This document shows, piece after piece, positions 8,706-21,289 of a DNA stretch of 32,244 nt; positions within the stretch are counted from its first letter, which is position 1, and every line of letters starts with the position of its first letter. Source of the stretch: a virus; IMG/VR virus record IMGVR_UViG_3300042465_002411, positions 1 through 32,244 of that record. One strand, given 5' to 3'. A program made the position numbers and the translations under genes. The notes under the pieces are model-generated. The model was not told the origin of the DNA. It saw nothing but the letters and a program-made list of their open reading frames with translations, and did no database searches.

Positions 8706-8735
8706 TTGTTTATCTAAAAAAAGGTTTTATATTTG
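8706..8735 (+). promoter_or_regulatory. Bacteroidota-type promoter of small RNA 1
   Basis: TTG at 8706-8708, 19-base spacer, TATATTTG at 8728-8735. This matches the Bacteroidota primary sigma consensus (TTG and TAnnTTTG). The predicted RNA start is near 8740-8742, just before the first stem of the RNA. Confidence 0.8.
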
Positions 8736-8740
8736 TAATT

Positions 8741-8840
8741 CAATATGGCTAGACACCTATTGATTTAGGTAGCCATTTTGATAAAACGAAATATCACCCT
8801 TAAGCAAAGTAGTCTAGCCCTTTGTATTAAGGGTTTTTTG
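8741..8840 (+). ncRNA. Structured ~100-nt RNA with intrinsic terminator
   Basis: From the predicted start, hairpin I is ATGGCT (8745-8750) with AGCCAT (8771-8776), a 4-base AGAC bulge, and ACCTA (8755-8759) with TAGGT (8766-8770). Hairpin II is CCCTTAA+CAAAG (8797-8809) with CTTTG+TTAAGGG (8820-8833), ending in six T: a terminator. The 10-base loop of hairpin II contains GTCTAGCC (8812-8819), fully complementary to GGCTAGAC (8747-8754). So the loop can form a pseudoknot with the 5' end or replace hairpin I. No long ORF lies inside. It may be a stand-alone small RNA or an attenuator/riboswitch-like leader of the downstream region. No known family recognised. Confidence 0.7.
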
Positions 8841-8857
8841 TTTCCTAAAAACAATCG

Positions 8858-9053
8858 AGATAGTTATTTATGGGGAAATACAACAATTTAACCTATCTTT
8901 AAAGCACTAAAATGGGATTCTAATGGTGCAACTGTGAACGAAACTACGACGGCTAACTAAGTAAATTTCAAACAGAGGAAAAAGGTATAAAATGAAAAAT
9001 ATTTATATCTGGATTAACACGAAAGTAGTTTTTCCCTTAGGCTTCTTCTGTTT
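8858..9053 (+). ncRNA. Folded non-coding stretch upstream of HNH gene
   Basis: This stretch is less AT-rich than its surroundings and contains nested complementary blocks: AGATAG (8858-8863) with CTATCT (8893-8898), enclosing a smaller hairpin; GCAC (8904-8907) with GTGC (8926-8929); and AAACAGAGGAA (8970-8980) with TTCTTCTGTTT (9043-9053), 11 bp with one G-T pair. No protein fits apart from a 24-codon ORF. It may be a functional RNA or a relic of a self-splicing intron or other element linked to the HNH gene. Intron core motifs were not recognised, and no split gene flanks it. Confidence 0.4.
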
Positions 9054-9066
9054 ACTCACCAACTAA
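8992..9066 (+). CDS. Possible 24-residue hydrophobic peptide
   Basis: ATG at 8992, preceded by a purine-rich stretch (GAGGAAAAAGG, 8976-8985), encodes 24 residues with a hydrophobic second half (VVFPLGFFCLL). The start lies inside the long hairpin 8970-9053, which would hide or expose it. It may be chance in a non-coding RNA. Confidence 0.25.
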   Translation: MKNIYIWINTKVVFPLGFFCLLTN

Positions 9067-9125
9067 AACTTCAAAGTAATATAATAAGTATATATATAAT
9101 AGTATATAATTAATAATTAAATAAT

Positions 9126-9133
9126 CACTAAAA
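9126..9133 (+). promoter_or_regulatory. CACTAAAA leader of HNH gene
   Basis: CACTAAAA begins 16 bases before the ATG at 9142, one of nine such early leaders. Confidence 0.55.
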
Positions 9134-9141
9134 TAAATAAT

Positions 9142-9807
9142 ATGAAAGAATGTAGTAATTGTAAAATAGAAATGGAATTAATTGAATTTAATAAAAAAAA
9201 AGAAACAAAAGATGGCTTTAGTAGTAAATGTAAAATATGTGAGAAAGAAAGAGCTATATTATGGTTTAATAATAATATAAATATTATAAAAGAAACCAAA
9301 AAAAAATACTATTTAAATAATAAAGAAAATTTAAAAGAAAAAAACAAAAAATAATATTTAAATAATTTAGAAAAAGTAAAAAATAAACAAAAAGAAACTG
9401 CAAAATTATATTATAAAAATAATAAAGAAAAAATAATAAAAAGAAATATAAAAAATCAAAAAAATAGAAAATTAATAGACCCTTTATTTAAATTAAGTTG
9501 TAATATTAGAACATTAATATGGATATCATTAAAAAAAAAATATACAAAAACTTCACGTACTCATCAAATATTAGGATGCTCCTTTGAAGATTTTAAAATA
9601 CACTTACAGAGCCAATTTACAAAAGGAATGAACTGGGAAAACGCTGGAGAATGGCATTTAGACCATATCTATCCAGTATCACTTGCAAAGAGCGAAGAAG
9701 AACTAATACAATTAAACCACTATACTAATTTTCAACCATTGTGGGCAAAAGATAATTTACAAAAAGGAAATAAGATAATAGATAATAAACGGCTAAAATT
9801 AATTTAG
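9142..9807 (+). pseudogene. HNH endonuclease gene interrupted by ochre stop
   Basis: One continuous reading frame of 221 codons, broken only by TAA at 9352-9354 (codon 71). The N-terminal piece has a Cys-pair motif (CSNCKIEM ... CKICEKERA), followed by a Lys/Asn/Tyr-rich linker. The C-terminal piece has the phage HNH core: HQILGCSFEDFK, GMNWEN, WHLDHIYPVS and FQPLWAKDNLQKGNK. Similar intact proteins are free-standing or intron-encoded homing endonucleases. In the linker the pattern KKYYLNN recurs, and the stop stands exactly where a Tyr codon (TAC or TAT) stands in the upstream unit, so one substitution explains it. The gene is probably inactive, unless the stop is read through or is a consensus error. 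It also carries an early-type leader (9126). Confidence 0.85.
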
Positions 9808-9867: not shown

Positions 9868-9875
9868 CACTAAAA
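9868..9875 (+). promoter_or_regulatory. CACTAAAA leader of DUF3850 gene
   Basis: Begins 16 bases before the ATG at 9884 and about 6 bases after the predicted transcription start, so it is the very 5' part of this mRNA. Confidence 0.6.
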
Positions 9876-9883
9876 AATAAATT

Positions 9884-10123
9884 ATGATACATAAATTAAA
9901 AATACTTCCCTATTATGCTGAATTGCATTTGATGAATAAGAAGAATTGGGAAATCAGAAAAAACGATAGGGATTTTAAAGTAAATGATAAAATATATTTT
10001 GAGGTAATTGAAGAAGAAAAGCACCCGCTCGGAAAAAGATGTTACCGAAGAAAAATAGACTATGTTTTTGAAGGCGAAGAATACGGATTAGAAAAAGGAT
10101 ATTGCATTTTATCAATAAGTTAA
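9884..10123 (+). CDS. DUF3850 (ASCH/PUA-like) protein
   Basis: A 79-residue protein with the DUF3850 pattern: HKLKILPYYAELHL at the N-terminus, WEIRKNDRDFKVNDKI in the middle, and YGLEKGYCILSI at the C-terminus. The family belongs to the ASCH/PUA-like folds, thought to bind RNA or nucleotides, and is common in small phage early regions. First gene behind an early promoter. Exact role unknown. Confidence 0.85.
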   Translation: MIHKLKILPYYAELHLMNKKNWEIRKNDRDFKVNDKIYFEVIEEEKHPLGKRCYRRKIDYVFEGEEYGLEKGYCILSIS

Positions 10124-10134
10124 AATAAAAATAA

Positions 10135-10251
10135 ATGAAACAAACACCATTACAAAGAGTCAAAAGAATTTTAGACTTCAACCACAAAAGAGGGAACAAC
10201 AAGGAATCAGTAAATGAAGTTTACAGAAAGATAATTAACACTAAAAAATAA
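10135..10251 (+). CDS. Small basic protein
   Basis: A 38-residue ORF, strongly basic (K and R), ending inside the leader of the next gene: its last codons overlap the CACTAAAA motif at 10239. No motif recognised. It fills an otherwise empty gap in a tightly packed operon. Confidence 0.45.
   Translation: MKQTPLQRVKRILDFNHKRGNNKESVNEVYRKIINTKK
10239..10246 (+). promoter_or_regulatory. CACTAAAA leader of 10255 gene
   Basis: Begins 16 bases before the ATG at 10255. The sequence from the motif to the ATG is identical to that before the 9884 gene (CACTAAAAAATAAATTATG). Confidence 0.55.
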
Positions 10252-10254
10252 ATT

Positions 10255-10590
10255 ATGAAAAGATTAGAAAACATTTATGATGTTACAAAAAGATTATGCG
10301 GAATGATTGAACCACAAGGGGCAACAAGCGTTGATGCTGTTAGATTAGATAATTTGACAGACACAATAGACTTAACTGAAAGATTAATTGAAGATATTAT
10401 TATGGTTGCACTCCATAAAGATAGATTTGAATTTTCAATGAAAAAAGCAGGAGAAAAAGCTGATAACTTTATTAGTGGATTACGTGGAAGATTAAATCCT
10501 AAGCCAATGTTTTCTGAACACGAAATTTCACGACTTCAAAGTAAAATTCACGCAATTACTAGAGATGGCGAACATTACGCAAAAGAATAA
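10255..10590 (+). CDS. Hypothetical early protein
   Basis: A 111-residue, mainly helical protein. A central acidic stretch of D, T and L (about residues 30-55) is followed by a basic part with a Gly/Arg cluster (ISGLRGRL). No family recognised. The leader motif and operon position support a real early gene. Confidence 0.6.
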   Translation: MKRLENIYDVTKRLCGMIEPQGATSVDAVRLDNLTDTIDLTERLIEDIIMVALHKDRFEFSMKKAGEKADNFISGLRGRLNPKPMFSEHEISRLQSKIHAITRDGEHYAKE

Positions 10591-12449: not shown

Positions 12450-12650
12450 ATGAGTACATTTTTAGAAAGATTAGAAGTAGAACAATTAGAATTGCAAACA
12501 AAAACACACGCATTAGAAACTTTTGTCGATAGTAATCCAGTTTTTGAAACGGTTAGCGAAATCCAAAGAGTTTTATTAGTAAATCAATTGAGTTCGATGC
12601 AAGGTTATTTATTTTGTTTGAATGAAAGAATTTTGGATTTATCTAAATAA
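12450..12650 (+). CDS. Small crAss001_48-like protein
   Basis: A 66-residue, two-helix protein with the pattern FLERLEVEQLEL at the N-terminus and a second amphipathic helix (VLLVNQLSSMQGYLFCLNERI). Such proteins of unknown function are widespread in phages, including crAss-like ones. The family link is from pattern memory and moderate. The -33 part of the next promoter lies inside its last codons. Confidence 0.6.
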   Translation: MSTFLERLEVEQLELQTKTHALETFVDSNPVFETVSEIQRVLLVNQLSSMQGYLFCLNERILDLSK

Positions 12651-12664
12651 ATAACCTATCTTTG
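12633..12664 (+). promoter_or_regulatory. Promoter of small RNA 2
   Basis: TTG at 12633-12635, 21-base spacer, TATCTTTG at 12657-12664. Predicted RNA start near 12669-12671. Confidence 0.7.
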
Positions 12665-12669
12665 TAATA

Positions 12670-12751
12670 GATGTTTAATAGCCATCATTTTTTCATAATT
12701 TTAGTTTTAGTGAACTGGAGAAAACCTAGCGGAAACGTTGGGTTTTTTTTT
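12670..12751 (+). ncRNA. Small RNA antisense to early gene leaders
   Basis: A gap without a gene holds a promoter (12633-12664), then about 80 bases, then a terminator with a GAAA loop. Bases 12694-12712 read CATAATTTTAGTTTTAGTG, the reverse complement of CACTAAAACTAAAATTATG, i.e. of the shared early leader including a start codon. Against the ATPase leader (15425-15444) the only difference is one bulged A. Against the methyltransferase start (20434-20458), counting the T-run upstream of the CAT, 22 of 25 positions pair. This suggests a trans-acting RNA that blocks or modulates initiation of several early genes. The structure is seen in the sequence; the function is inferred. Confidence 0.6.
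12722..12751 (+). terminator. Terminator with GAAA tetraloop
   Basis: AAACCTAGCG (12722-12731), loop GAAA, CGTTGGGTTT (12736-12745): 10 bp with two G-T pairs, then nine T residues (12743-12751). Confidence 0.92.
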
Positions 12752-12859: not shown

Positions 12860-12867
12860 CACTAAAA
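12860..12867 (+). promoter_or_regulatory. CACTAAAA leader of small peptide gene
   Basis: CACTAAAAC starts 12 bases before the ATG at 12872. Confidence 0.55.
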
Positions 12868-12871
12868 CAAA

Positions 12872-12949
12872 ATGAGCAGAGCAACACAATTAAAAATAGG
12901 CTTAGCAATCTTAGCCTATTTTATCTTAAGAACATTAATTAATATTTAA
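12872..12949 (+). CDS. 25-residue membrane peptide
   Basis: First ORF behind a strong early promoter, with its own CACTAAAA leader. It encodes a short basic N-terminus and a hydrophobic segment (IGLAILAYFILRTLI). The next gene has a second copy of the leader directly after this stop. It could be a leader peptide or a small toxin-like membrane peptide. Confidence 0.45.
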   Translation: MSRATQLKIGLAILAYFILRTLINI

Positions 12950-12957
12950 CACTAAAA
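12950..12957 (+). promoter_or_regulatory. CACTAAAA leader of 12961 gene
   Basis: CACTAAAAC begins 11 bases before the ATG at 12961. Confidence 0.55.
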
Positions 12958-12960
12958 CAA

Positions 12961-13164
12961 ATGAGCAAACAAAATGAAAGCTGGGGAAACAAGGAAGTAG
13001 TCGAGTTTCTAACTTTATCAAATAACGCTTTGATAATTGAAAACCAAAGATTGAAAGACAAAATTGAAGCACTAATTAACAGGGTAGAAGTTACCGATGC
13101 AGAATTAGTAAGTAATCACTATTACGAATTTATTAATAATTTTAACTATAAATTGAAAAAGTAA
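12961..13164 (+). CDS. Small coiled-coil protein
   Basis: A 67-residue protein with a heptad-like stretch at residues about 22-50 (ALIIENQRLKDKIEALINRV), suggesting a dimeric coiled coil, and an aromatic C-terminal end. Unknown function. One base separates it from the next gene. Confidence 0.6.
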   Translation: MSKQNESWGNKEVVEFLTLSNNALIIENQRLKDKIEALINRVEVTDAELVSNHYYEFINNFNYKLKK

Positions 13165-13559: not shown

Positions 13560-14126
13560 ATGGAAGTAAGACAATTAGAATTAGGCGAAAAGCTATCAAA
13601 CATACAGTTTGAATTTAAAGCACAAAAGAGCAATTATAACTCTTTTGGGAAATACAAATTTAGAAGTGCAGAGGACATTTTAGAAGCGTTAAAACCGTTC
13701 AATATTAAATATCAAGTCTACTTCACAATTAACGAAAGTTTGGTAAATGCGAACCCCCCAATAATGCAAAGTATAGCTACTATCTTTGATGTGCAAAGCG
13801 GACAGCAAATAGATGCACAAGCTATTGTAGAAGTAGACAAAGAACAAAAAGGAATGGCAATGCCACAAAGATATGGTTCAGCAAGTTCATACGGTAAGAA
13901 ATACGCTTTAGGCAACTTATTATTAATAGACGATACTAAGGATTCAGATGCAACTAATACGCACGGTAATGAGCCTAAAAAAGAGCAAGTAAAGCCTAAT
14001 TTAGAAATAGGAACAGAAGCCTTTACAAAAGCAAAAGATTACTTAGCTGGAGGTGGCGACATAGCATTAATAGAAAAGAAATATATTTTAACCGCTGAAG
14101 TAAAAACAGCACTAACAAAAAAATAA
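13560..14126 (+). CDS. erf: ERF-family single-strand annealing protein
   Basis: A 188-residue protein of the ERF superfamily. It contains FGKYKFRSAEDILEALKP (about residues 29-46), a central beta part, and the signature GSASSYGKKYALGNLLLIDD (about residues 102-121), then a DTKDSDA stretch and a linker to a short helical C-terminus. ERF proteins anneal complementary single strands and help recombination or circularisation of the phage genome. Next to it is an OB-fold protein that may act as its ssDNA-binding partner. Confidence 0.92.
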   Translation: MEVRQLELGEKLSNIQFEFKAQKSNYNSFGKYKFRSAEDILEALKPFNIKYQVYFTINESLVNANPPIMQSIATIFDVQSGQQIDAQAIVEVDKEQKGMAMPQRYGSASSYGKKYALGNLLLIDDTKDSDATNTHGNEPKKEQVKPNLEIGTEAFTKAKDYLAGGGDIALIEKKYILTAEVKTALTKK

Positions 14127-14129
14127 ATT

Positions 14130-14480
14130 ATGGAAATTACAGGAACGATTATAGTAATAGGAGCAACGGAAACAATCGGAGCGAAAGACTTCAAAAAAAG
14201 ATTGTTAGTTTTAAAAACTGAAGAGCAATATCCGCAAAGTATTCCAGTTGAATTTACACAAGATAAAACAACGGTCTTGAATAACTACGCAATCGGGGAC
14301 TTAGTCAAGGTAGGAATAAATCTAAGAGGTTCAGAATGGCAAGGTAAGTATTACGCTAATATTCAAGGTTGGAAAATTGAGAAAACAGTTTCAAAAGATT
14401 TAACAGCACAAAAGCAAATGCCAGATAGGGAAGCGGTATATGGAACTGAAACAGCAGACGATAAATTACCTTGGGAATAA
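14130..14480 (+). CDS. DUF3127 OB-fold, SSB-like protein
   Basis: A 116-residue protein with a DUF3127 pattern: EITGTIIVIGATE, FKKRLLVLKTEEQYPQ, IPVEFTQDK, then GDLVKVGINLRGSEWQGKYY. DUF3127 is found almost only in Bacteroidota and their phages and is predicted to be an OB-fold ssDNA-binding protein. The C-terminal tail DDKLPWE looks like the acidic SSB tip that recruits partners. It sits 3 bases after the ERF gene. Confidence 0.85.
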   Translation: MEITGTIIVIGATETIGAKDFKKRLLVLKTEEQYPQSIPVEFTQDKTTVLNNYAIGDLVKVGINLRGSEWQGKYYANIQGWKIEKTVSKDLTAQKQMPDREAVYGTETADDKLPWE

Positions 14481-15424: not shown

Positions 15425-15432
15425 CACTAAAA
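15425..15432 (+). promoter_or_regulatory. CACTAAAA leader of ATPase gene
   Basis: Begins 17 bases before the ATG at 15442. The span 15425-15444, CACTAAAAACTAAAATTATG, is the best match to the antisense stretch of small RNA 2 (one bulged A). Confidence 0.6.
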
Positions 15433-15441
15433 ACTAAAATT

Positions 15442-16353
15442 ATGTTAATAGACTACAAAAAAGAATTAGAAATTTTAAAGAAAATTAGAAGCGGAAAGAT
15501 ACGTCAAGGTTATGCATTAGGAATAAAAGAGATTGACGACTATTTAGTATTCAAGCCTTCTAATTTCAATATAATACTTGGACACGCAAACGTTGGTAAA
15601 ACAACAGCTATATTATACTTAATGCTGGCTTATTCGCTTAAACACGGTAAGAAGTGGATTATATGCAGTACAGAGAACGATTCGTACTCTTTGATTCGAA
15701 AGTTAGTTGAGTTTTTGGATGAGACACCAATTAACCTTGTTTCAGATGCAAACTTTAAAACGCATACTGATTTTATAAACGAACATTTTAGATTTTTAGA
15801 TAACGCAATTATGTACACTTATGTAACAGCTATTGATTTATTCAGAAAGATAAAAAAAGATTTTAATTACGATGGGATATTATTAGACCCTTACAATAGT
15901 TTGGCGAAAGAGCCAGAGATGATGAAAAACTTAGGAGGTCACGAATACGACTATCAAGCCTGTACTGAAATGCGAATGTTCTGCAAAGAGAATAAAGTTT
16001 CTATCTGGTTAAATACACACGCCAATACAACCGCTTTGAGAATGCTTTATAATACAAATCACCCCTTTGCAGGATTTCCACAGCCACCGATGGCTAATGA
16101 TGTTGAGGGCGGTGGTAAGTTCGTAAACAGAGCCGATGACTTTATAGTAATTCACAGGCTTGTAGGACACGCTGAAATCTGGAATAAGACAATGATTCAT
16201 ATTCGAAAAATTAAAGAAGTAGAAACGGGCGGAATACCGACACCGTATGAAAAGCCGATAGAGTTAACAGCACTAAGTAATAATGTAGGCTTCGCATTAA
16301 ATGGCAAATCAATACTTCAAACAATTAAAGAAAGTCAACTAAATTTTTTATAA
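15442..16353 (+). CDS. DnaB/RecA-type replicative ATPase
   Basis: A 303-residue protein with a RecA-like fold as in the C-terminal domain of DnaB helicases. Walker A is GHANVGKTT (residues 47-55), Walker B is DGILLD (144-149), and a sensor-like motif WLNTHA follows at about residues 189-194. It lacks the N-terminal primase-binding domain of full DnaB, so it may be a short phage helicase or a KaiC-like ATPase. It is the largest early gene and probably central to replication. It overlaps nothing, and the sigma-like gene follows with zero gap. Confidence 0.85.
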   Translation: MLIDYKKELEILKKIRSGKIRQGYALGIKEIDDYLVFKPSNFNIILGHANVGKTTAILYLMLAYSLKHGKKWIICSTENDSYSLIRKLVEFLDETPINLVSDANFKTHTDFINEHFRFLDNAIMYTYVTAIDLFRKIKKDFNYDGILLDPYNSLAKEPEMMKNLGGHEYDYQACTEMRMFCKENKVSIWLNTHANTTALRMLYNTNHPFAGFPQPPMANDVEGGGKFVNRADDFIVIHRLVGHAEIWNKTMIHIRKIKEVETGGIPTPYEKPIELTALSNNVGFALNGKSILQTIKESQLNFL

Positions 16354-16896
16354 ATGAATGATTTACTATCGGTGCTTTTTAAGAAACATAAATTATGGCT
16401 AAATTATATAAAGTCTTTCGGATGCAGCAATGATACAGCGGAAGACTTTGTGCAGGAAATGTATATTAAAATATTCATTTATGTTGAGAAAAATGGTAAC
16501 GATATTATGTATAATGATACAGAGGTTAATTACTTTTTTGTTTACGTAACTTTAAAAAATATGTTTTACGATAATTTAAGAAAAAAGAAAAAGTTATTAT
16601 TAAGCGATTTAACGAACGATATTGCAGAAGATGAAACAGAATATACCGAAGTAGATTTTTATCTTAAAAACGATGCTGTAATAGCTTGGAGGGATAACTT
16701 AGAGCAAGAGATAAACAACCTTGACGAATACACAAGAGAAAAAGCAAACCTATGTTATATTAGATTCATTTACGAAAAGATATTAGTAGAACATATACCA
16801 GTTAGTAAGTTGAGCCGAGATGCTGGAATTACTTATTTTAGTTTACGAAATACAGTATTGATTATTAAACAACAAATTAAAGATTTAAAAAAATGA
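16354..16896 (+). CDS. Sigma-70-like factor
   Basis: A 180-residue protein with sigma region 2 (about residues 5-75; SNDTAEDFVQEMYIKIF and FFVYVTLKNMFYDNLRKKKK) and a C-terminal helix-turn-helix like region 4 (VSKLSRDAGITYFSLRNTV). This is the ECF or phage-sigma arrangement, seen in many Bacteroidota phages. It probably redirects host RNA polymerase to phage late promoters. No host-type TAnnTTTG promoter was seen upstream of the late genes, which fits such a role. Confidence 0.85.
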   Translation: MNDLLSVLFKKHKLWLNYIKSFGCSNDTAEDFVQEMYIKIFIYVEKNGNDIMYNDTEVNYFFVYVTLKNMFYDNLRKKKKLLLSDLTNDIAEDETEYTEVDFYLKNDAVIAWRDNLEQEINNLDEYTREKANLCYIRFIYEKILVEHIPVSKLSRDAGITYFSLRNTVLIIKQQIKDLKK

Positions 16897-18391: not shown

Positions 18392-18399
18392 CACTAAAA
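18392..18399 (+). promoter_or_regulatory. CACTAAAA leader of 18408 gene
   Basis: Begins 16 bases before the ATG at 18408, and supports that ATG against an in-frame ATG at 18363, which lies in the promoter. Confidence 0.6.
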
Positions 18400-18407
18400 C
18401 AAACAAA

Positions 18408-18554
18408 ATGACAACATTTAATCAAGAGTTAACATTAGAGCAAGCAATTGAATTATTTAAATTTAAAGGAGAAACAATGTTTCCAAAAACTCAACATAAT
18501 ATTAAAATGATGGCTTTGGTTATTGATAATCATTTAAAAACACTTAGAAAATAA
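18408..18554 (+). CDS. Small helical protein
   Basis: A 48-residue protein. An upstream in-frame ATG (18363) lies inside the TATATTTG promoter box, before the transcription start, so 18408 is the right start. Helical, with LTLEQAIELFKFKG and a basic end. Overlaps the next ATG by one base. Unknown. Confidence 0.6.
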   Translation: MTTFNQELTLEQAIELFKFKGETMFPKTQHNIKMMALVIDNHLKTLRK

Positions 18555-19330: not shown

Positions 19331-19346
19331 CACTAAAACACTAAAA
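19331..19346 (+). promoter_or_regulatory. Tandem CACTAAAA leader
   Basis: Two directly adjoining copies of CACTAAAA (19331-19338 and 19339-19346), 19 and 11 bases before the ATG at 19350. Confidence 0.6.
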
Positions 19347-19349
19347 CAA

Positions 19350-19544
19350 ATGACACCAAAAGAAAAAGCGTTAGAGTTAATTGATAATTATGAAGATAAA
19401 TGTCCAGAATATATTAGACATAATACTGCAAAATGGTGTGCATTAATAGCAGTTGATGAAATATTAAATGAATTGCAAATAGATTATAATGAGGATAGAA
19501 TAAATTATTATTTAGAAACAAGATTAGAAATAGAAAAGCTATGA
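19350..19544 (+). CDS. MTPKxKA-type small protein (paralogue 2)
   Basis: A 64-residue protein with TPKEKALELI, CALIAVDEI and LEIEKL landmarks, as in the protein at 17668. Its stop overlaps the exonuclease start by 4 bases. Confidence 0.6.
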   Translation: MTPKEKALELIDNYEDKCPEYIRHNTAKWCALIAVDEILNELQIDYNEDRINYYLETRLEIEKL

Positions 19545-20433: not shown

Positions 20434-20441
20434 CACTAAAA
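20434..20441 (+). promoter_or_regulatory. CACTAAAA leader of methyltransferase gene
   Basis: Begins 16 bases before the ATG at 20450. CACTAAAACTAA and the following start codon with six A pair with small RNA 2 at 22 of 25 positions. Confidence 0.6.
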
Positions 20442-20449
20442 CTAATAAA

Positions 20450-21289
20450 ATGAAAAAAGCAAAAATATTCAATAATCATTTCCAGAACTTTAAAACATAC
20501 GCTATTCCAAAAGCACAATTAATAATAGCGGATATCCCTTATAACTTAGGTAACAATGCATACGCTTCGAATCCAGCTTGGTATAAAGATGGCGACAATC
20601 AAAATGGAGAAAGTGCCTTAGCTGGCAAAAGTTTTTTTGATACTGACGAAGATTTTAGACCTGCCGAATTTATGCATTTTTGCAGCACAATGCTAAAGCC
20701 TGAAAAGAAAAATATAAAAGTTGAAGGCGAAGCAAGGCAAAAAGGAGATGCACCTTGTATGATTGTTTTTTGTGCCTTTGACCAACAAATGGATTTAATA
20801 CAACTTGCTAAAAGATACGGATTGAACAATTATATTAATTTAGTATTTAGAAAGAATTTTTCTGCACAAGTATTAAAAGCAAATATGAAAGTAGTAGGTA
20901 ATTGCGAATATGGTTTAATATTTTATAGAGACAAACTACCTAAATTTAGAAACAAAGGTAAAATGATTTTTAATTGTTTTGATTGGGAACGTGACGATGC
21001 AACGGTAGAAAAATTACATCCAACGCAAAAGCCTTTGAAACTTTTAAGAAAATTAATTGAAACATTTACAGACGAAGGCGATGTAGTTATTGACCCTTGT
21101 GCGGGTTCTGGTTCAACTTTAATAGCAGCACAAGAATTAAAAAGGACTGCGTTTGGTTTTGAAATTAAAAAACCATTTCATAAAGCAGCGGAACATTGGA
21201 TTGACCAAGAGCATCAAAAATTATCCGATATAGAAGAATTCGGATTTGCAAAAACATTAATAGAAAAAACAGAAGCAACATTATTTTAA
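20450..21289 (+). CDS. DNA methyltransferase (N6-A or N4-C)
   Basis: A 279-residue protein of the beta-class amino-methyltransferases. Motif IV is DIPY (residues 28-31; usually DPPY, so one substitution), HPTQKP lies at 190-195, and motif I is IDPCAGSGS (about 214-222), in the order IV then I. It transfers a methyl group from SAM to adenine N6 or cytosine N4. There is no partner restriction enzyme, so it is likely an orphan phage methylase that protects the genome from host restriction. The region between 31 and 105 is unusually Asp/Gly/Lys-rich. Confidence 0.9.
   Translation: MKKAKIFNNHFQNFKTYAIPKAQLIIADIPYNLGNNAYASNPAWYKDGDNQNGESALAGKSFFDTDEDFRPAEFMHFCSTMLKPEKKNIKVEGEARQKGDAPCMIVFCAFDQQMDLIQLAKRYGLNNYINLVFRKNFSAQVLKANMKVVGNCEYGLIFYRDKLPKFRNKGKMIFNCFDWERDDATVEKLHPTQKPLKLLRKLIETFTDEGDVVIDPCAGSGSTLIAAQELKRTAFGFEIKKPFHKAAEHWIDQEHQKLSDIEEFGFAKTLIEKTEATLF

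Follow-up and report, generated by a model that had tools for sequence, protein, structure and literature searches.

A small RNA (sRNA) encoded in the early region of an uncultured tailed phage probably controls in trans a regulon made up of early genes of the same phage, most likely by blocking translation initiation, judging from the sequences of this phage and its relatives. The window, by which we mean the whole stretch of 32,244 nucleotides that was analyzed, is a contig of 32.2 kb with a GC content of 31%. Both of its ends carry portal, terminase, tail and tape-measure-like genes, which flank an early block encoding NinG, ERF, DUF3127, a DnaB-like ATPase, an exonuclease and a methyltransferase. 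By portal protein, the nearest cultured phages are the Nonlabens phages P12024S and P12024L; the 33% identity of this protein, together with a similar gene order, suggests a probable host within the Flavobacteriaceae. A blastn comparison with isolate phages produced no match, and only one weak match to NinG was found in 395 Bacteroidota genomes, indicating that the phages of this sRNA group are probably not common prophages.

The unit spans positions 12633–12751 on the plus strand and is made up of a promoter, a small RNA and a terminator. The promoter (12633–12664) is of the Bacteroidota type, TTG...TATCTTTG, with a TAnnTTTG -7 box that is also found 5' of the unit in relatives. The small RNA unit itself (12665–12751) is non-coding, has a predicted 5' end at about 12669–12671, and is matched by our covariance model R1 at 12675–12751 (E 1.5e-8). 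Its 5' tail includes CATAAT (12694–12699), of which CATAA recurs in the 5' parts of the relatives; this element is antisense to ATTATG, which in the leaders comprises the start codon and the three nucleotides 5' of it. The tail runs into a hairpin (12699–12720), whose stem arms, at about 12699–12706 and 12713–12720, show compensatory changes in relatives, and whose loop, TTAGTG (12707–12712), is invariant in alignment A2 and antisense to CACTAA. The UUAG of the loop fits the U-turn motif YUNR. An intrinsic terminator with a GAAA-capped stem and nine T (12721–12751), evident from both sequence and fold, closes the unit. Both the promoter and the terminator had been described in the initial annotation, with coordinates and sequences that proved correct, as did its observation that positions 12694–12712 are the exact reverse complement of CACTAAAACTAAAATTATG. 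That 19-mer fits the leader consensus, as had been claimed, but an exact copy occurs nowhere on the plus strand of the window, and the match is therefore to the consensus and not to one leader. Nor is the 19-mer conserved as a whole; the unit kept from phage to phage consists of the hairpin loop UUAGUG and the CAUAA tail.

The short ATG frame in the window's unit is not kept in relatives, and inspection by eye revealed no conserved reading frame. A scan of the window against Rfam 15 returned no family at the gathering score. Membership in the FopS family was rejected, since its covariance model (RF04319) scored 22.5 bits against the sRNA unit, below the cut-off of 56. A cis-antisense phage RNA of the sar/OOP type was likewise rejected, because no ORF of at least 40 aa lies opposite the unit and the targets are elsewhere. 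An independent short unit with its own promoter and terminator, as is characteristic of trans-acting sRNAs, can be recognized in the window and in the relatives.

Among related Bacteroidota phages, all of them uncultured, 35 records contain a unit with the loop, one per phage and usually directly 3' of ninG. The 35 were collected by reading the DNA 3' of ninG in 41 related contigs, about a dozen of which carried the unit, and the remainder were added by pattern scans and an ERF search. Model R1 detected a single strong copy in each phage (E 1e-13 to 1e-6), gave E 1e-4 on two loop-less variants, and produced weak matches at most (E > 0.01) on other ninG phages. Within 14 sequences collected without using the hairpin, the loop UUAGUG was constant and five of the six stem pairs showed compensatory changes. 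The covariation score of the stem was 0.548, compared to 0.19 after shuffling (0/500) and no more than 0.25 for slid controls, and of 25 distinct 5' tails, 15 held CAUAA, where shuffles predicted 1.1. An exact search of viral contigs for the 3' seed region of the window found no matches, because the sequence around the loop varies. The hairpin pattern was matched 10 times in 84,980 bacterial and archaeal genomes, and these matches were rejected as chance, as none had the TAnnTTTG promoter and GC-rich terminator of a proper unit. Three cultured Bacteroidota phages yielded no convincing copy with R1 (best E 0.037, loop missing); whole-genome searches with RNA models scored 150 candidates, and their sensitivity is hence low. 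A loop-less variant, with CUUUGUUUUUGUUUG in place of UUAGUG, was observed in L008, L009, L010 and L013 (records G003 and G004), where the CACTAA leaders are nearly gone along with the loop. This variant perhaps reflects decay or a new seed; a search for a new seed in the loop-less RNA of both records did not reveal one (z of about -1).

The loop and tail of the sRNA are antisense to CACTAAAA…ATTATG, a leader located 15–18 nt 5' of early-gene starts. Ten genes of the window carry this tag, all between 9.1 and 20.5 kb and on the plus strand. They are gene 9142 (leader CACTAAAATAAATAATATG, 9126–9144; predicted duplex -22.0 kcal/mol), the DUF3850 gene at 9884 (9868–9886), gene 10255 (10239–10257; -21.9 kcal/mol), the 25-aa gene 12872 (12860–12874), gene 12961 (12950–12963), the DUF3127 (SSB-like) gene 14130, with the CACTAAC form (14110–14132), the DnaB-like ATPase gene at 15442 (15425–15444), the 48-aa gene 18408 (18392–18410), gene 19350, with a doubled leader (CACTAAAACACTAAAACAAATG, 19331–19352), and the DNA methyltransferase gene at 20450 (20434–20452), which has the best predicted duplex (-22.9 kcal/mol). 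The individual pairings reported earlier were reproduced: the match includes a single additional A in the ATPase leader and covers 22 of 25 positions at the methyltransferase start (20434–20458) and 16 of 19 in the DUF3850 and 10255 leaders. The control proposed in the initial annotation, in which the RNA is compared with shuffled versions of itself, came out in its favor. Across 59 start regions of the window, the ten best duplexes of the actual RNA averaged -18.9 kcal/mol, compared to -14.4 +/- 1.1 kcal/mol for 300 dinucleotide-shuffled RNAs (0/300), with the single best duplex being less striking (8/300).

The leader tag is enriched chiefly in the phages that have the RNA. When leader 7-mers were ranked de novo, CACTAAA was among the top enriched, and ranked first in several sRNA phages. 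Leader-motif sites, counted with the sRNA gene masked and with expectations taken from permuted hexamers, numbered 174 against 39.9 expected in the 35 records with the RNA, 23 against 14.1 in 14 records without it, and 1 against 1.9 in the two records with a loop-less RNA. By record, the difference in enrichment gave a Mann-Whitney p of 5e-6; these phages are kin, and the leader counts are therefore not independent events. The 1.6-fold excess in the 14 phages without the RNA is partly due to G034, a fragment that does not cover the sRNA region. The motif was not enriched in three cultured Bacteroidota phages, and 100 kb of low-GC Bacteroidota chromosomes held 2 sites against 4.1 expected. Some sRNA phages (G005, G007, G027, G438) have few such leaders, and in several phages the ATPase leader lacks the motif. 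In leaders, CACTAAAA occurred 96 times and its complement TTTTAGTG 7 times, an enrichment on the sense strand only, and the distance from the C of CACTAAAA to the AUG peaked at 15–18 nt. A match between sRNA and leaders by chance is excluded.

RNA and leaders have also changed together. Cognate RNA-leader pairing was stronger than pairing after swapping between phages (residual -1.55 kcal/mol, permutation sd 0.35, 0/20,000), and the same test on the 5' part (tail) alone gave p 5e-5; four sites that were antisense reads of the sRNA gene itself were removed from the swap tests. Two bases beside the loop co-vary between RNA and leaders: RNAs with GGU-UUAGUG go together with CACTAAAC leaders (7:5 versus 5:106, Fisher p 7e-6), and GUU RNAs with CACTAAAAC (AAC) and UUU RNAs with CACTAAAAA (AAA) leaders (46:19 versus 5:25, Fisher p 8e-7), values that treat leaders as independent once identical ones are removed and that come from phylogenetically dependent contigs. 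UUU contigs fetched after this pattern had been seen agree with it, containing 14 AAA leaders and 1 AAC leader, and the flanking-base classes are scattered on both the ninG and the ATPase trees. The ATPase gene displays the loss directly, its leader reading AACACTAAAACAAATG in G031, where the RNA is intact, AAAACTAAAAACAAAAATG in G005, where the hairpin is weakened, and AACAAAACAAAACAAATG in G004, where the loop is missing. The RNA-leader core common to these phages is only 8–9 bp, with few G-C pairs, and in some RNAs (such as those of G002 and G025) the spacing between tail and loop is longer than in their leaders, so that tail and loop cannot both pair without a bulge. A seed complementary to several mRNAs at their ribosome-binding region, co-varying with them, is the second mark of a trans-acting sRNA that these phages display. 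The comparison with related phages called for at the outset has thus borne out the idea that one RNA pairs with several early-gene leaders: RNA and leader motif co-occur, disappear together and show covariation down to single bases. On these grounds, sRNA-leader pairing is strongly supported.

Transcription, pairing in cells, repression and early-to-late timing are inferred from these patterns, and we propose the following course of events. The sRNA would be transcribed from the host-type promoter 3' of ninG and end at the intrinsic terminator. Its exposed UUAGUG loop would first pair with CACTAA of the common leader, about 12–17 nt 5' of the AUG, and as the stem opens, its UUUU or GUUU would pair in turn with AAAA or AAAC; in many phages the CAUAA tail could carry the pairing on to the start codon. 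The resulting duplex would cover the ribosome-binding stretch and most likely stop initiation. Tagged early genes would be turned down as the sRNA builds up, and late structural genes, having no such leader, would escape. The YUNR U-turn motif has been linked to fast pairing of antisense RNAs (PMC4485353). In Flavobacterium johnsoniae, structure from about -20 to +20 tends to lower initiation, and an A at -12/-13 favors it (PMC6847099); the target site of the sRNA covers this region in which adenines aid initiation. A precedent within the Bacteroidota is FopS, whose sRNAs pair at or near start codon regions and thereby block translation (PMC11697453). Taken together, the YUNR loop, a site over initiation-relevant adenines and the FopS precedent make repression the most likely outcome of pairing.

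The same pairing data would fit an RNA that binds these leaders and instead activates or stabilizes the mRNAs, for instance through protection of the transcripts or release of the start region, and would thus serve as a positive early regulator. If pairing were confined to -17 to -12, the AUG could stay free, and 10 of the 25 distinct RNAs have no CAUAA tail. We nevertheless regard activation as unlikely, because the leaders are A-rich and probably little structured, leaving nothing obvious to unfold, because structure near the start tends to lower initiation in F. johnsoniae (PMC6847099), and because in most members the CAUAA tail extends to the start codon. Slightly less probable still is a main target elsewhere, be it a host mRNA, the early genes of another phage (as superinfection control) or replication priming, with the leader match being secondary. 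The unit does adjoin recombination and replication genes, and since the leaders are common to related phages, the RNA could also silence a competitor; however, among the phage leaders compared, cognate pairing exceeds non-cognate pairing, which favors the phage's own genes. We give very little credence to the idea that CACTAAAA is a DNA operator, a repressor or activator site read on either strand, with the sRNA copy being a reversed site. One octamer is indeed present in both the leaders and the unit, and a TAnnTTTG promoter lies within 90 nt 5' of some leaders, but the leader motif is confined to the sense strand at a set distance from the AUG, the RNA copy lies in the loop of a hairpin whose stem shows compensatory changes, and the bases beside the motif behave as co-varying Watson-Crick partners of opposite orientation, part of which a common operator drifting within each phage could mimic. 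Equally remote, and already disfavored, is a general Bacteroidota translation-enhancing leader with the unit as a chance or relic antisense copy: A-rich leaders are favorable in Flavobacterium (PMC6847099) and the minus strand of the unit resembles a leader followed by ATG AAA AAA, but phages without the RNA show at best a weak enrichment of the motif and the cultured phages and chromosomes none, and a relic would not retain a promoter, a covarying hairpin and a terminator, nor co-vary with leaders.

Several other elements of these genomes were noted. Directly 3' of the ATPase gene, gene 16354–16896 encodes a 180-aa protein with a weak match to sigma-70 region 2, below Pfam's cut-off, making it a candidate late sigma factor. 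CGTTATA or CGTTAAA occurs about 12 bases 5' of late-gene starts (window positions 2379, 23269 and 30582), with TTTCCGTTAATATA in P12024S (L149), and may represent a late promoter of the phage from which mRNAs with very short leaders would start. An attractive extension is that the sRNA regulon could control a switch from early to late genes. A second structured unit, at 8728–8840 of the window, has a TAnnTTTG promoter, two interleaved stems (GGCTAGAC/GTCTAGCC and ACCCTTAA/TTAAGGGT) forming an H-type pseudoknot and, mostly, a terminator-like T run at its end. It also occurs in L010, L011, L012, L014, L016, L017, L023, L025, L035, L037–L041, L045, L053 and L082, and its topology is kept among many phages with differing stem sequences. 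It has no Rfam match and looks like an undescribed conserved RNA. Additional structured leaders may be represented by long gene-free stretches 5' of early genes (window 8850–9125, and 3' of the sRNA unit in L012 and L015). In P12024S, a small unit with promoter and terminator but no TTAGTG lies 3' of gene 14 (L149, about 10170–10245) and could encode a comparable sRNA that uses a different seed; a leader motif matching it was sought in P12024S and not found.

Among known systems, the FopS sRNAs of Bacteroides thetaiotaomicron (RF04319) are, by analogy, the closest functional counterpart, but they are RbpB-linked and encoded on the host chromosome in 14 paralogs, whereas here a single phage copy would be aimed at the phage's own regulon. 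RNAII of plasmid pMV158, which blocks translation of its target, similarly combines a single-stranded 5' tail with hairpin loop recognition (PMC4485353); it differs in controlling plasmid replication through one target, repB, and in having no U-turn loop, whereas the phage sRNA has a loop of the U-turn type and about ten targets, which are encoded at other places in the genome. Other antisense RNAs have U-turn (YUNR) loops that the UUAG of the phage sRNA resembles (PMC4485353), but these were described for loop-loop kissing in plasmid control, and the partner here is an A-rich, probably unpaired leader. P22 sar, lambda OOP, phi24B 24B_1 and DicF are likewise phage-encoded RNAs that regulate mRNAs of phage or host at the level of translation or stability, but according to the accessible part of a review (PMC12197685) each has one or few targets, often cis-overlapping, and belongs to lambdoid phages or prophages. 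None of the phage antisense RNAs in that part of the review has a leader tag common to many of the phage's own genes (PMC12197685).

As far as that partial survey extends, known phage sRNAs act on one or few targets. The co-evolution seen here, of one RNA with a tag on about ten genes, provides direct evidence at the sequence level for an RNA regulon that is phage-wide. A fuller version of this model is conceivable, at somewhat less than even chances: a phage RNA regulon in which one sRNA and the leader tag on about ten early genes co-evolve, early translation is turned off as a class, and late genes, having no tag and perhaps being read from a phage-specific CGTTATA promoter near the AUG, escape. 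If true, such a class-wide shut-off would amount to a post-transcriptional early-to-late switch. Compensation between RNA and leader can be predicted to the exact base. Bacteroidota hosts do not use Shine-Dalgarno pairing, and the sRNA and its leader tag may provide a handle on how Bacteroidota phages time their genes.
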